From Candidatus Nanopelagicales bacterium (GTDB lineage Bacteria; Actinomycetota; Actinomycetes; S36-B12): 52,339 bases of DNA. Position 1 is the first letter of the stretch. Each line of letters starts with the position of its first letter. Below the pieces are notes generated by a model. The model saw only the letters and a program-made list of their open reading frames with translations. It searched no databases and was not told the DNA's origin. Shown here piece after piece: positions 38,494-43,486 of this stretch. A program made the translations under genes and the position numbers. The stretch lies in assembly GCA_017854795.1 (NCBI GenBank), contig JAFMHB010000010.1, positions 1-52,339 of the forward strand. Direction: 5' to 3'.

Positions 38494-39477
38494 ATGGACA
38501 ATGATTCGGGACCATCGGTACGGACGGTTCGCAACTCGGCTGTTCCACTCGCCGCGTACTCTCGAAATGGGCACACTGAGGGTGTTTTCTATGGTCATGC
38601 AGTGGTGCTCGATCCGGACGGAAGTGTCGTCCGAAGTTGGGGCAGTACAACCCAAGAATTTTATCCTCGGTCCTCGAACAAGATTGGTCAGGCTACCGCA
38701 ATGGCGCAGGCCGGCCTGATTCTGCCGCAGCACCTTCAAGCGCTCACCGCCGCTTCCCATTCAGGTGAAGAATTCCATATTGATGCTGTACGCGAAATTC
38801 TCGCGGGTGCGAATCTGGCTCCCGCCGCATTACAAACACCGGAGGATTACCCACTTGATTCCGTTGAAAGGGATGCATGTATTGCCCGAGGCGAAGACAG
38901 ATCACCAATCCTCATGAATTGCTCTGGCAAACACGCAGGAATGTTGGCAACATGCATCATCAATGGCTGGGATGTTAAGTCTTATCTTGCACCTGAGCAC
39001 CCGCTGCAAATTGCAATAAAGATCAAACTCGAGGAGATGTCCGGTGAAGCCATCTCATTCCAAGGTGTTGACGGGTGCGGTGCTCCTGTTCATGCATTGA
39101 CACTCCCGGGGCTTGCACGCCTTTCCCAGACTGCCGTACTTGCAGATTCGGGAAGTCCTGAACGGATAGTTGCCGATGCCATGAGAGCACACCCGCAATA
39201 TGTCGGCGGGACGAGGCGGGATGTCACCCATTTCATGACGGCAATCCCTGGCCTACTCGCAAAGGATGGTGCCTTTGGTGTTTATACGGCGTCATTTCCG
39301 GACGGGAGAGCAGTCGCCCTGAAGATTGAAAGTGGGGCCGAAGCTGGCCGCAATGCGGCAATGGCCGGTCTGCTCAGGTACTTAGGAGCACCAGAATCCG
39401 CGGTCGAAATCTATTCCGCACAGCCGGTGCTTGGCGGCGGCAAAGTTGTTGGGAATATTTACCCAACACTCATTTGA
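38494..39477 (+). CDS. L-asparaginase II-type amidohydrolase
   Basis: 327 residues of the thermolabile, Rhizobium-type asparaginase family, distinct from the E. coli AnsA/AnsB type. Marks are an N-terminal strand (ESVHRGTAVVLD-like FYGHAVVLDPDG), MNCSGKHAGMLATC with the family Cys and Ser-Lys pair, and GVDGCGAPVHAL. It hydrolyses asparagine to aspartate and ammonia. The stop overlaps the permease start (TTG at 39474), so uptake and hydrolysis are translationally coupled. Confidence 0.88.
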   Translation: MDNDSGPSVRTVRNSAVPLAAYSRNGHTEGVFYGHAVVLDPDGSVVRSWGSTTQEFYPRSSNKIGQATAMAQAGLILPQHLQALTAASHSGEEFHIDAVREILAGANLAPAALQTPEDYPLDSVERDACIARGEDRSPILMNCSGKHAGMLATCIINGWDVKSYLAPEHPLQIAIKIKLEEMSGEAISFQGVDGCGAPVHALTLPGLARLSQTAVLADSGSPERIVADAMRAHPQYVGGTRRDVTHFMTAIPGLLAKDGAFGVYTASFPDGRAVALKIESGAEAGRNAAMAGLLRYLGAPESAVEIYSAQPVLGGGKVVGNIYPTLI

Positions 39478-40643
39478 GTTCGATGATTCGCACACTCGCA
39501 ATCCCGGGTGCAACCCTGATCGGGCTTGCTTCCATGGTTGGGACGGGTGTTTTTGCAGCATGGTCACCCGCGTACGCCCTCGCGGGTTCGGCACTCCTTA
39601 TTTCGCTACTCATTGCGTCCTCGATCGCAGCGCTAAATGCATTTTCTAATGGGCGTATGGCACGCATTTATCCGCAGTCCGGTGGCGGGTACGTGTATGG
39701 GAAACACTGTCTAGGAACGAACGCAGCCTTAATTGCTGGTTTCGCATTTGTCATTGGGAAAACTGCCTCGGCATCTGCAGCCGCACTTGTGATTGGTGCC
39801 TATCTTGCTCCCGACCATTCACGAATTGTTGCCGTACTGGCTGTCCTAATTGTATTAGCCATGAATCTCCTAGGACTCAAATATTCTTTAGCGGCAATGA
39901 CCGTGAGTGTCTCAATAGTTATTGCGATCATTGTGTCTTTGATCGTCTTTCCCCGATCGGATGAAAGCCTTTCAGCATCCGCGGCACTCACACCGCAGCC
40001 GACCTTCTTTACTATCGTTGCCGCCGCTGGAATCCTCTTCGTAGCTTTCGCGGGTTACGCGAGGATTTCCGTGATTGCCGGCGAGGTTAAACGCCCAAGG
40101 GTTGTCATTCCTTGGGCAATCGGAATCAGCTTGGCTCTGGTTCTCATTCTTTATTTCTTTGTTGCGCGGCTCCTGCTTAGCGTCCCACAAACCTTGGTGT
40201 CCACCACGCCACTTCAGTCGTTAGCCACTGTTTCTGACTATCCCGTATTGCTGATTCAAGTAGGTGTAGTGCTGGCCGCAGGTTCAGCGCTGTTCGCCCT
40301 GAATTTAGGTATAGGTCGCATGATCTTTGCCATGGCGAAGGATGGGCCGCTTCCCTCAGCACTCGCAATGGTGGTGGGTCCACGCACAGTTCCGGTACCG
40401 GCAGAAATCTTGACAGGTGTTGTTGTGCTCGTTGTGACTATCTTCGGTGGCATCGGACTCAACTTGGCGATTTCTGGAATATTCGTTCTGTGTTACTACG
40501 CCGTAGTGCAAGTTTCCAGCATGACACAAGGGGGAAGCCTGATAGTCCGTTGGGTTATTCCCACAGTGGGGGTTGATTGTCATGACATTCGTCATTGGCT
40601 CATTGGCTTTCAGTGCACTTGGAAAAGGGCTTGGGTGACTTGA
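39474..40643 (+). CDS. APC family amino acid permease, frameshifted at the C-terminus
   Basis: The frame gives 389 residues with about eleven hydrophobic segments. LIGLASMVGTGVFAAW at the start is the APC substrate-binding helix 1. TTG 39474 (overlapping the asparaginase stop) or ATG 39483 may be the start. The last 22 residues (VDCHDIRHW...) are polar and unlike a permease, whereas the other frame after the G5 run at 40568-40572 gives LIVMTFVIGSLAFSALGKGL and a stop at 40636-40638. One G too many would explain it. Likely role: amino acid, perhaps asparagine, uptake for the coupled asparaginase. Confidence 0.82.
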   Translation: MSSMIRTLAIPGATLIGLASMVGTGVFAAWSPAYALAGSALLISLLIASSIAALNAFSNGRMARIYPQSGGGYVYGKHCLGTNAALIAGFAFVIGKTASASAAALVIGAYLAPDHSRIVAVLAVLIVLAMNLLGLKYSLAAMTVSVSIVIAIIVSLIVFPRSDESLSASAALTPQPTFFTIVAAAGILFVAFAGYARISVIAGEVKRPRVVIPWAIGISLALVLILYFFVARLLLSVPQTLVSTTPLQSLATVSDYPVLLIQVGVVLAAGSALFALNLGIGRMIFAMAKDGPLPSALAMVVGPRTVPVPAEILTGVVVLVVTIFGGIGLNLAISGIFVLCYYAVVQVSSMTQGGSLIVRWVIPTVGVDCHDIRHWLIGFQCTWKRAWVT

Positions 40644-40651
40644 TTGGTTAC

Positions 40652-40741
40652 TTGGTTAGCTGTGCGGATTACAAGCACTCAATTGACTCAAAAATGGGGC
40701 AATAAGTGTATTTCGGTCAAAAAATCCGCACAGCTAACCAA
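40652..40741. repeat. 90-bp element with 19-bp perfect inverted terminal repeats
   Basis: TTGGTTAGCTGTGCGGATT (40652-40670) and its exact reverse complement (40723-40741) enclose 52 bp of AT-rich sequence without a coding frame. It starts 14 bp after the corrected permease stop. The shape fits a MITE-like element or a large transcription-terminating stem; no target-site duplication is evident next to it and no transposase is in the window. Perfect arms suggest recent origin or selection on the structure. Confidence 0.7.
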
Positions 40742-40762
40742 CAAGCGCGGCGGCCTTGCAGG

Positions 40763-40856
40763 CCCATGCGAGCGATCCCATGCGAGCGATCCCATGCGAG
40801 CGGTCCCATCTGAGCGGTCCCATGCGAGCGGTCCCATCTGAGCGATCCCATCCGAG
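40763..40856. repeat. 14-bp tandem repeat, 6.7 units
   Basis: Consensus CCCATGCGAGCGRT. Units start at 40763, 40777, 40791, 40805, 40819, 40833 and 40847 (the last partial). Units 4 and 6 carry CTGAG instead of GCGAG, and position 13 alternates A/G. It lies between the inverted-repeat element and the XRE promoter. The period of 14 is not a multiple of three, and no coding frame is likely. It may be a length-variable spacer or a protein-binding array. Confidence 0.85.
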
Positions 40857-40943: not shown

Positions 40944-41369
40944 ATGGCCGTAATAGATGTCAGCGGACTCGGATCTTTCATCCGTGATCAGCGTGACCAA
41001 GCACAAATGTCGCTACGTCAACTCGCAAAGGCTGCCGAGGTGTCGAATCCGTACCTGAGTCAGGTTGAGCGTGGATTACGCAAACCCAGTGCGGAAATCC
41101 TGAGTCGGATTGCTCAAGGACTTCGGATCTCCGCGGAGAGTTTGTACGTCCAGGCTGGGATCCTCAGCGATCGTGCAGGTGACGAAATTGTCACCACGGC
41201 TATTGCCTCGGATCAAACCTTGACGCAACGCCAGAGAACGACTCTGCTTCAGATTTATGCGGCATTCCAAGCTGAAAACAGTTCGAATTCGGAAACAAAT
41301 GTTGAAACACAAGTGCAAGAGGACCCGCAAACCAAACCTGACGAAAATGTGCAAGGAAAAACACAGTAA
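40944..41369 (+). CDS. XRE-family helix-turn-helix regulator
   Basis: 141 residues. An N-terminal XRE DNA-binding domain is at about residues 8-65 (MSLRQLAKAAEVSNPYLSQV, RGLRKPSAEILSRIAQGL). A middle helix (RQRTTLLQIYAAFQAE) and a low-complexity Asn/Gln/Glu-rich tail follow. Length and position match Rv0474 of M. tuberculosis, which precedes hbhA. The ATG at 40944 follows a leaderless promoter flanked by paired operator-like sites, so autoregulation is likely. A frame beginning 5 codons earlier exists but lacks promoter support. Confidence 0.88.
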   Translation: MAVIDVSGLGSFIRDQRDQAQMSLRQLAKAAEVSNPYLSQVERGLRKPSAEILSRIAQGLRISAESLYVQAGILSDRAGDEIVTTAIASDQTLTQRQRTTLLQIYAAFQAENSSNSETNVETQVQEDPQTKPDENVQGKTQ

Positions 41370-41409
41370 AACGAACGAGAAAATAAACGAGAAGATGAAA
41401 GAGGATGAA

Positions 41410-41691
41410 ATGTCGGAAGAAATGAACACATCAAATAAATTCAACTTTTTTGGTGTCGAATTGCCAAAAATTGAGATGCCAAAGGTTGAATTGCCAAAAA
41501 TTGAGATGCCAAAGGTTGAGTTCCCAAAAATTGAGATGCCTGCTGTGAACATGGATGGTGTCGGCACCGCCATTGACGCTGTTAAGTCTGCTGCAAAAGG
41601 CAGTTACACAACCGCCACCGAAGCGGCCACGAAGGTTCGTCACAGCGCTGGCCAAACAGTGACGCTGGTACGCGAAGCGATTGGCGTCTAG
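41410..41691 (+). CDS. short Pro/Lys/Glu repeat protein in the HbhA position
   Basis: 93 residues from the ATG at 41410 with GAGG 5 nt upstream; the frame is open further 5' but overlaps the XRE gene. Residues about 16-43 repeat the decapeptide ELPKIEMPKV 2.7 times. The second half is an amphipathic helix (GTAIDAVKSAAKG, TEAATKVRHSAGQTV) like phasin/HbhA helices. HbhA of M. tuberculosis, between the same XRE and DUF2516 genes, is about twice as long and has GIELPKK before its Lys-rich tail (from memory), which recalls FFGVELPKIE here. Probably a divergent or reduced relative. A surface or granule-associated role is possible; no signal peptide is present. Confidence 0.75.
   Translation: MSEEMNTSNKFNFFGVELPKIEMPKVELPKIEMPKVEFPKIEMPAVNMDGVGTAIDAVKSAAKGSYTTATEAATKVRHSAGQTVTLVREAIGV
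41458..41540 (+). repeat. 30-bp in-frame tandem repeat, 2.8 units
   Basis: The unit starts GAATTGCCAAAAATTGAGAT and ends GCCAAAGGTT. Units 1 and 2 (41458-41487, 41488-41517) are identical at DNA level, and unit 3 (41518-41540) has two changes before it breaks off. Identity at silent positions indicates recent duplication or slippage, so copy number may vary between strains. It encodes the ELPKIEMPKV decapeptide. Confidence 0.85.
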
Positions 41692-41792: not shown

Positions 41793-41827
41793 CTGCATTT
41801 ATAGGGGACGTCGGTTAGCATCATTCC

Positions 41828-42109
41828 ATGGGCTTTGAGACACTCGTCGTTTATGCACTTTGGGCGATCCTGCTCGCCGTGAAGGTTTTCGCTTTCGTTG
41901 ATGCGATTCGTAGGCCAGCCGACTACTTCCCGTTCATCGGGCGACAAACGAAACTGCTATGGGTAGCACTCACCGGAGTATCCGTGCTTGCAGGATTGGC
42001 GCCATCTCTGGCATTGTCCATATTTGGCATCGCAGGAACCGTTATTGCATTGATTTACCTCTTCGATATCAGGCCAAAAATGATAGAAATTACCGGTCGA
42101 AAGTACTAA
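41828..42109 (+). CDS. DUF2516 family membrane protein
   Basis: 93 residues with three hydrophobic segments: VVYALWAILLAVKVFAFVDAIRRP, LLWVALTGVSVLAGL and SIFGIAGTVIALIYLFDIRP. VDAIRRPADYF and the YLFDIRP end are the DUF2516 signatures. Matches Rv0476, which follows hbhA in mycobacteria. The function of the family is not known. A hairpin upstream suggests its own promoter, although none is obvious. Confidence 0.85.
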   Translation: MGFETLVVYALWAILLAVKVFAFVDAIRRPADYFPFIGRQTKLLWVALTGVSVLAGLAPSLALSIFGIAGTVIALIYLFDIRPKMIEITGRKY

Positions 42110-42172
42110 GAAAAGTACTAATGGCAGCCCGTTGCTCCTGTGGTTTGTAAACGTATGGCAATATCGGATGAA

Positions 42173-42300
42173 ACAAGGGGAGTATCCCTTCGCCGAAAGT
42201 TCGTCAATACGGTCCTCCCATGGGGACCCGGACTTCGGGCCGGTGTTACACCGGTGGAGAGACCTTGTGAATCGCGGCCCGTGCTGCCTTACACAAGGAG
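42173..42300 (+). promoter_or_regulatory. yybP-ykoY (Mn2+) riboswitch with overlapping anti-SD switch
   Basis: The aptamer spans about 42173-42268. P1 is ACAAGG (42173-42178) with CCTTGT (42263-42268). The conserved GGGGAGTA (42177-42184), the metal-site loop CGTCAATACG (42202-42211) and the closing GGAGAGACC (42256-42264) are all present, with internal hairpins GGTCC/GGACC and CCGGTG/CACCGG. The 3' P1 strand CCTTGT can instead pair with ACAAGG at 42293-42298, which contains part of the AAGGAG ribosome-binding site. Metal binding should therefore free the site and turn translation on. The motifs are seen directly; the switching mechanism is inferred. Confidence 0.85.
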
Positions 42301-42307
42301 CAAGTGA

Positions 42308-42640
42308 GTGCCAAAACCCCAATGGGCCGACCGCTACACCAACTCTTGGGCATCCATGCCAACTCCCATCAGGAGAATCCTCGCAGCGAGCGTGGGCATG
42401 ACCACGCTGTTAGTCGGGGTGGTGCTCCTCGTGCTACCCGGACCTGGATTAGTTGTGATGCTATTTGGCCTAGCAATTCTGGCAACCGAATTTACATGGG
42501 CTAAGCACAGCATGCACCGGGTTAAGCACCACGGGAATCGAATTACGCGAGGAATCACCCGCAGGAATAAACCCGACAGCAAAAGCCCGGACTCAGATCA
42601 AAATGAGGCAACATCAAGTGAGGAATCATCGGAGAGGTAA
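42308..42640 (+). CDS. PGPGW/TIGR02611-type membrane protein under riboswitch control
   Basis: 110 residues with a GTG start 7 nt after AAGGAG. Two hydrophobic segments surround the family motif: GVVLLVLPGPGLVVMLFGLAILATEFTWAKHSM. The canonical PGPGW Trp is Leu here (PGPGL). A cytoplasmic C-terminal tail is rich in Lys, Ser, Asp and Glu, with His-rich MHRVKHHGNRI next to the membrane. The family has no assigned role. Its upstream Mn2+ riboswitch suggests it takes part in manganese efflux, or in membrane protection under high manganese, as TerC and MntP do under the same riboswitch class. Confidence 0.8.
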   Translation: MPKPQWADRYTNSWASMPTPIRRILAASVGMTTLLVGVVLLVLPGPGLVVMLFGLAILATEFTWAKHSMHRVKHHGNRITRGITRRNKPDSKSPDSDQNEATSSEESSER

Positions 42641-42721
42641 GAAAACAAAGGTGATCATCTCGAGCGCAGGCTTACTCAGCGCTAGATTATTTCTACAAGG
42701 CCGCTGACAAGTTCGTTTCCT

Positions 42722-43486
42722 CTATTTCTTTTTCCCTTGAGCAGCGACAGCAGCGGCTGCCTCGGTTGCCGCAGCCGGGTCAAGGTATTCACCACCGGCA
42801 ACGATTGGCTTTAAGTTCTTATCAAGCTTGTACACAAGTGGGATTCCCGTTGGAATATTTAGACCCGCGATTTCGTCATCAGAAATTCCATCGAGGTGCT
42901 TCACTAAAGCGCGGAGTGAATTACCGTGGGCGACAACCAGAACAATCTCATCGCGGCGGAGGTGTTCGGCAACTATTACGTCCTCCCAAAAAGGAATCAG
43001 ACGATGCACAACGTCGGCTAAGCACTCGGTGTTGGGCACAGCCTCCGGTGGAAGCGAGGAATAGCGCGGATCAGAGTTCTGCGCGAATTCACTACTGGGA
43101 TCAATGGGTGGTGGAGGGGTGTCAAAGGAACGGCGCCATAACATGAATTGCTCTTCACCGAACTCAGCGAGCGTTTGCGCCTTATCTTTTCCTTGAAGCG
43201 CACCGTAGTGACGCTCATTGAGGCGCCAGTTTCGCACCACCGGAATCCACAATCGTCCGCAAGCTTCTAACGCAATCTGTGAAGTTTTGATTGCCCGTTG
43301 GAGCAGGGATGTGATTACCACGTCAGGGAAGAGCCCGGATTCGGCAAGGAGCTCCCCGCCCTTCTGTGCCTCGCCACGACCTTTGTCATTGAGATCAACG
43401 TCAACCCACCCGGTAAATAGATTCTTGGCATTCCACTCGGATTCACCGTGACGCAGCAGGATTAACGTGTAAGAGGTTTCGCTCAT
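42722..43486 (-). CDS. gpmA: 2,3-bisphosphoglycerate-dependent phosphoglycerate mutase
   Basis: 254 residues. Interconverts 3- and 2-phosphoglycerate in glycolysis. The phosphohistidine motif [10 protein letters not shown] is near the N-terminus, [13 protein letters not shown] follows, and [14 protein letters not shown] and [13 protein letters not shown] (second His) complete the active site. The Ala/Lys-rich tail is typical. It is the last gene of the minus-strand run phoU - mshA - ybjN-like - gpmA, in the order seen near Rv0486-Rv0490 in mycobacteria. Confidence 0.95.

Follow-up and report, generated by a model that had tools for sequence, protein, structure and literature searches.

A yybP-ykoY-class riboswitch directly upstream of a PGPGW-family membrane protein gene suggests a role for this family in manganese overload

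Analysis of a 52,339-nucleotide stretch of DNA from a Candidatus Nanopelagicales bacterium (the whole stretch is termed the window) revealed a riboswitch in front of a gene encoding a small membrane protein of the PGPGW family (Table 1). The RNA belongs to a known riboswitch class, and its assignment to the yybP-ykoY class is established at the level of sequence and structure comparison. Most probably, it is a translational Mn2+-ON switch that controls a single gene, PGPGW, which would be a member of a Mn2+-overload module. In relatives, this module would also hold TerC and a GreA/GreB-domain protein. As the phosphoglycerate mutase gene lies on the opposite strand, PGPGW is the sole gene downstream of the switch. 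A scan for sigma-70-like promoters found none on the forward strand. Three features before the DUF2516 gene were also seen: an amino-acid permease frame (39474-40643) with its final ~40 residues unlike the family, possibly through frameshift or decay; short direct repeats in the stretch that separates the permease from an HTH gene (40720-40840, by eye in translated frames); and an open frame after the HTH gene (41257-41691) with a repeated PKIEMPKVELPKIEMPKVEF pattern and no Pfam or NCBIfam match.

Table 1. Features of the riboswitch locus in the window.
Feature	Position	Strand	Remarks
DUF2516 gene, upstream neighbour	41828..42109	+	PF10724; locus marker in sister species
yybP-ykoY-type Mn2+ riboswitch aptamer (predicted ligand)	42174..42267	+	sole R3 match; covariation beyond shuffles
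P1 5' strand CAAGG	42174..42178	+	pairs with CCUUG 42263-42267; 100% paired in 30 relatives
Hairpin arm, conserved loop CGUCAAUACG 42202-42211 opposite CCGG 42228-42231	42193..42238	+	covarying helices
Second arm of the three-way junction (P4-like hairpin)	42239..42255	+	covarying helix 4
Putative expression platform	42263..42298	+	CCUUGUG 42263-42269 can pair with CACAAGG 42292-42298; excludes P1
PGPGW-family membrane protein, 110 aa, GTG start	42308..42640	+	PF09656, 1.8e-17; GTG 7 nt past AAGGAG
Phosphoglycerate mutase, convergent, closes the unit	42722..43486	-	NF010718, PF00300

The original prediction had placed a riboswitch at 42173-42268 with all conserved parts of the class readable and P1 perfectly closed. 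The riboswitch is present, with its extent corrected to 42174-42267, and this stretch indeed contains the perfectly closing P1 (CAAGG/CCUUG), GGGGAGUA, CGUCAAUACG, CCGG and GAGACC. In a blastn search, the leader matched 12 of 57 related genomes, a count that includes the window genome. Fitting a hand-made structure to 12 sequences gave 91.6% paired cells with 13 pairs changed on both sides; none of 500 shuffles was as good, and slid controls fell to 25-52%. The covarying helices of the loop arm are 42193-42200/42232-42238 and 42212-42215/42224-42227. In 12 relatives, the elements expected to form the metal pocket, namely the loops GGGGAGUA, CGUCA..ACG and CCGG in a junction closed by P1, are invariant columns. 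The same covariation picture was obtained with 30 distinct sequences in an alignment that had been fitted to the model, and P1 shows two-sided changes from CG to GC and from AU to GC among the 30 relatives.

Two covariance models were used for class assignment. Model R2 was built from the family of the window only, and model R3 from 13 Actinomycetes sequences outside the order of the window plus E. coli alx, with none from that order and with its members aligned through R2. R3 gave one match in the 52 kb window, at 42174-42267 (91.5 bits, E 3.6e-24). R2 matched the entire E. coli alx leader (47.9 bits, E 3.1e-13), gave a weak match to mntP (16.1 bits) and, of 345 Actinomycetes genomes, recognised the element in 243. 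Homology to E. coli alx, a member with experimental validation, was found both ways, via R2 and via R3. By homology to E. coli alx and mntP, we infer that the ligand at this switch is Mn2+.

The search with the Rfam yybP-ykoY model that had been proposed as a check failed, yet it is uninformative. With RF00080 (Rfam 15), neither the window at the gathering score, nor 41800-42700 at E<=10, nor the genome as a whole gave a match. However, the same model also misses the validated E. coli alx leader (no reported match at E<=0.01), gives mntP 41.6 against a cut-off of 45, and exceeds its cut-off in none of 148 Actinomycetes genomes; therefore its negative result carries no weight. At one Actinomycetes locus (G125 C22), matches of R2 and RF00080 overlap. 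The current Mn2+ model of Rfam misses the class almost completely in Actinomycetes, so that the regulon is under-counted there.

The segment CACAAGG at 42292-42298 overlaps the Shine-Dalgarno (SD) sequence AAGGAG at 42295-42300, seven bases ahead of the GTG at 42308. The minimum-energy fold of the leader (42174-42312) is the OFF form, in which the SD is hidden. At 43 of 50 loci, the P1 3' strand forms its best helix with an SD-like segment, pointing to a platform coupled to P1. Compensatory P1/SD changes were found among the loci (CCUUG/CAAGG, CCUUC/GAAGG, CCUCC/GGAGG and CCCUG/CAGGG), and all three partners co-vary: P1 of CAAGG/CCUUG occurs with CACAAGG, GAAGG/CCUUC with CCGAAGG or CCGGAGG, GGAGG/CCUCC with CCGGAGG, and CAGGG/CCCUG with CACAGGG. 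The helix between the P1 strand and the SD has a mean length of 7.3 vs 6.0 in shuffles; since this excess is modest, the argument for the platform rests on position and compensation. At high Mn2+, the aptamer would close P1 (CAAGG/CCUUG) and free the SD AAGGAG, whereas at low Mn2+ the CCUUGUG strand would pair with CACAAGG and hide it. The mutually exclusive P1 and SD pairings therefore predict a translational ON switch, and we infer that translation is switched on by Mn2+. Translational control has been described for mntP (PMC9603457).

Counting how often PGPGW genes follow such switches, another check proposed at the outset, confirmed the association. An order-wide survey of 166 genomes found 79 switches and 84 PGPGW genes, with 42 genomes carrying both. 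In 22 of these 42, PGPGW lies 95-1747 nt downstream of the switch on the same strand, and the contig with the switch never carries it on the opposite strand. A rough uniform-placement estimate puts the chance expectation at about 0.03, and related genomes are not independent events. Two further pairs (G087 and G101) are apparently split at contig ends, and one case of linkage was found beyond the order (G120). The first gene after the switch at 31 family loci is terC (16), a GreA/GreB-domain gene (9) or PGPGW (6). The gene orders seen are switch-terC-PGPGW, switch-terC-PGPGW-greA, switch-terC-greA-PGPGW, switch-PGPGW-greA and switch-PGPGW. Mn2+ control of PGPGW is strongly suggested by these sequence comparisons. 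Since at least 22 related genomes share this pairing, PGPGW probably helps cells withstand excess manganese, by association.

On the PGPGW tree, which is poorly resolved (77 columns), the label 'linked to switch' requires 7 changes (5-7 in bootstraps), indicating repeated gain or loss of the link. Many PGPGW genes do not adjoin a switch, including a TIGR02611-like type with a third membrane segment seen in the taxonomic class, and inspection by eye of the neighbours of unlinked genes found no metal theme. In those genomes of genus g12 that have the direct switch-PGPGW arrangement (L156-L159, L165, L169-L171), two tandem terC genes lie elsewhere, on contigs with no R2 match. A separate observation concerns a GreA/GreB C-terminal-domain protein (PF01272, ~160 aa) often encoded directly after the Mn2+ riboswitch (L004, L021, L023, L025, L026, L039, L040, L044 and L045; also L078 and L089). 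Control of a Gre-type RNA-polymerase factor by Mn2+ would be no less surprising than that of PGPGW.

The history of the locus was traced within the genus. DUF2516 and gpmA directly adjoin each other in three genomes, and an AlaX-like editing gene (named from sequence) lies between them in four. G003 and G005 carry PGPGW at this locus without a switch, with a gap of ~16-24 bases, and the window genome and G009 carry switch-PGPGW there. Either the switch-PGPGW cassette arrived and then lost its switch in G003 and G005, or the switch is a later addition. One switch and one terC are present in the window genome; the latter lies beside uvrB without a switch, which leaves PGPGW as the sole gene found behind the switch there. 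No degenerate switch was found before this terC. A second terC is present in the three genomes that carry the switch-terC operon; sisters lacking this operon have only one copy.

These data bear on the possibility that the switch is a relic, PGPGW being the passenger of a former switch-terC-PGPGW operon from which terC was deleted, leaving regulation without function. Such operons are common in the order and occur in the same genus (G007, G008 and G011), which keeps the idea alive, but we consider it improbable. In the tree, the window PGPGW groups with the sister copies at the DUF2516-gpmA locus (G003/G005) and not with the terC-operon copies of the genus. In addition, direct switch-PGPGW junctions occur in two separate genera, each with an SD-pairing platform, and both species of the genus with the direct junction keep every conserved aptamer base. 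That terC had moved away from the locus was rejected, because sisters show DUF2516-PGPGW-gpmA or DUF2516-gpmA there, with terC absent. The loss of a true target, which the original prediction had named as a way to be wrong, is weakened likewise by the PGPGW copies of G003 and G005, which stand there without a switch in genomes that have no second terC, and by the uvrB-linked terC of the window genome. A chance resemblance with no riboswitch at all would fit the absent Rfam match, but its probability is negligible in view of the R3 match and the covariation; the independent model already refutes it. Slightly less probable than a relic is a yybP-ykoY-like switch that senses a cue other than Mn2+, such as another divalent metal or pH. 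The E. coli alx switch is also responsive to alkaline pH and that of S. pneumoniae mgtA to Ca2+ and Mn2+ (PMC9603457, PMC9495176), whereas here all conserved loop bases are retained and TerC follows the switch in most relatives.

What PGPGW acts on may be a general stress of the membrane or envelope provoked by Mn2+, and not Mn2+ itself, the switch being a mere stress sensor; we hold this to be a serious, if less favoured, alternative. It agrees with the lack of a conserved metal-ligand cluster in PGPGW and with the grouping with the GreA/GreB-domain protein, which suggests a broader damage-control set, and nothing decisive speaks against it. According to the preferred reading, PGPGW, perhaps in partnership with TerC, would act at the membrane to redistribute excess Mn2+ or to help the cell tolerate it, and this is the weakest step of the proposed mechanism.

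The 110-residue product, described in the original prediction as PGPGW/TIGR02611-like, scores 63 bits against the Pfam PGPGW cut-off of 23.3 but only 47.7 against the TIGR02611 cut-off of 70.6. The invariant family positions (alignment A6) are G30, G37, LPGPG (43-47), G54, L58, E61, W64 and A65. No histidine is among them, which removes the membrane-proximal histidines as support; a metal-binding His cluster was rejected since the histidines are not conserved across the family. The structure model, of low confidence (mean pLDDT 67.6, pTM 0.29), shows a helical hairpin in which the PGPG turn joins the helices of residues 19-42 and 47-86, and it suggests no metal site. No solved structure matched the window protein in sequence. 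Our best guess is that PGPGW, as a small membrane protein shaped as a helical hairpin, acts alongside TerC in the response to Mn2+ overload; a role as a small TerC partner or as a parallel membrane factor is a guess. In G011 and G008 (L048:727-1689 (-) and L049:1462-2442 (+)), the PGPGW of the switch-terC-PGPGW operon is fused in-frame to a C-terminal reductase-like part that looks RibD-like, giving a protein of ~320 aa.

A testable role for the PGPGW family emerges from an RNA sensor of known ligand, and the Actinomycetes regulon includes PGPGW and GreA-like genes besides TerC. With an even chance in our judgement, PGPGW is a new family of Mn2+-overload effectors and forms, together with TerC and the GreA/GreB-domain protein, a small actinobacterial Mn2+-riboswitch regulon tying membrane Mn2+ handling to RNA polymerase protection. 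The open literature searched names PGPGW in one paper, never mentions it together with yybP-ykoY, and contains nothing relevant on GreA and Mn2+. There, neither PGPGW as a target family nor the three-gene regulon seems to have been described, the key 2015 survey of yybP-ykoY targets lying outside the search.

The yybP-ykoY class normally controls manganese exporters. Similar to E. coli alx, a TerC-family gene whose leader R2 matches in full, the window leader has GGGGAGUA, CGUCA..ACG and CCGG in a three-way junction. However, its last aptamer bases differ (GAGAGACC vs UAUUCC in alx), the target in the window is PGPGW and not a TerC or MntP exporter, and the switch lies directly against the SD of its gene, unlike in alx. 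A yybP-ykoY leader has been reported for Corynebacterium glutamicum cg2157 terC (PMC3890552). TerC proteins are active in Mn efflux and contribute to the metalation of secreted enzymes (PMC10550928). The same class of leader precedes terC in relatives of the window, whereas the window unit has no terC. The protein shares with PF09656 PGPGW and TIGR02611 the PGPG turn between two membrane helices; the longer TIGR02611-like proteins have a C-terminal membrane segment, whereas the window protein is short and lacks it.
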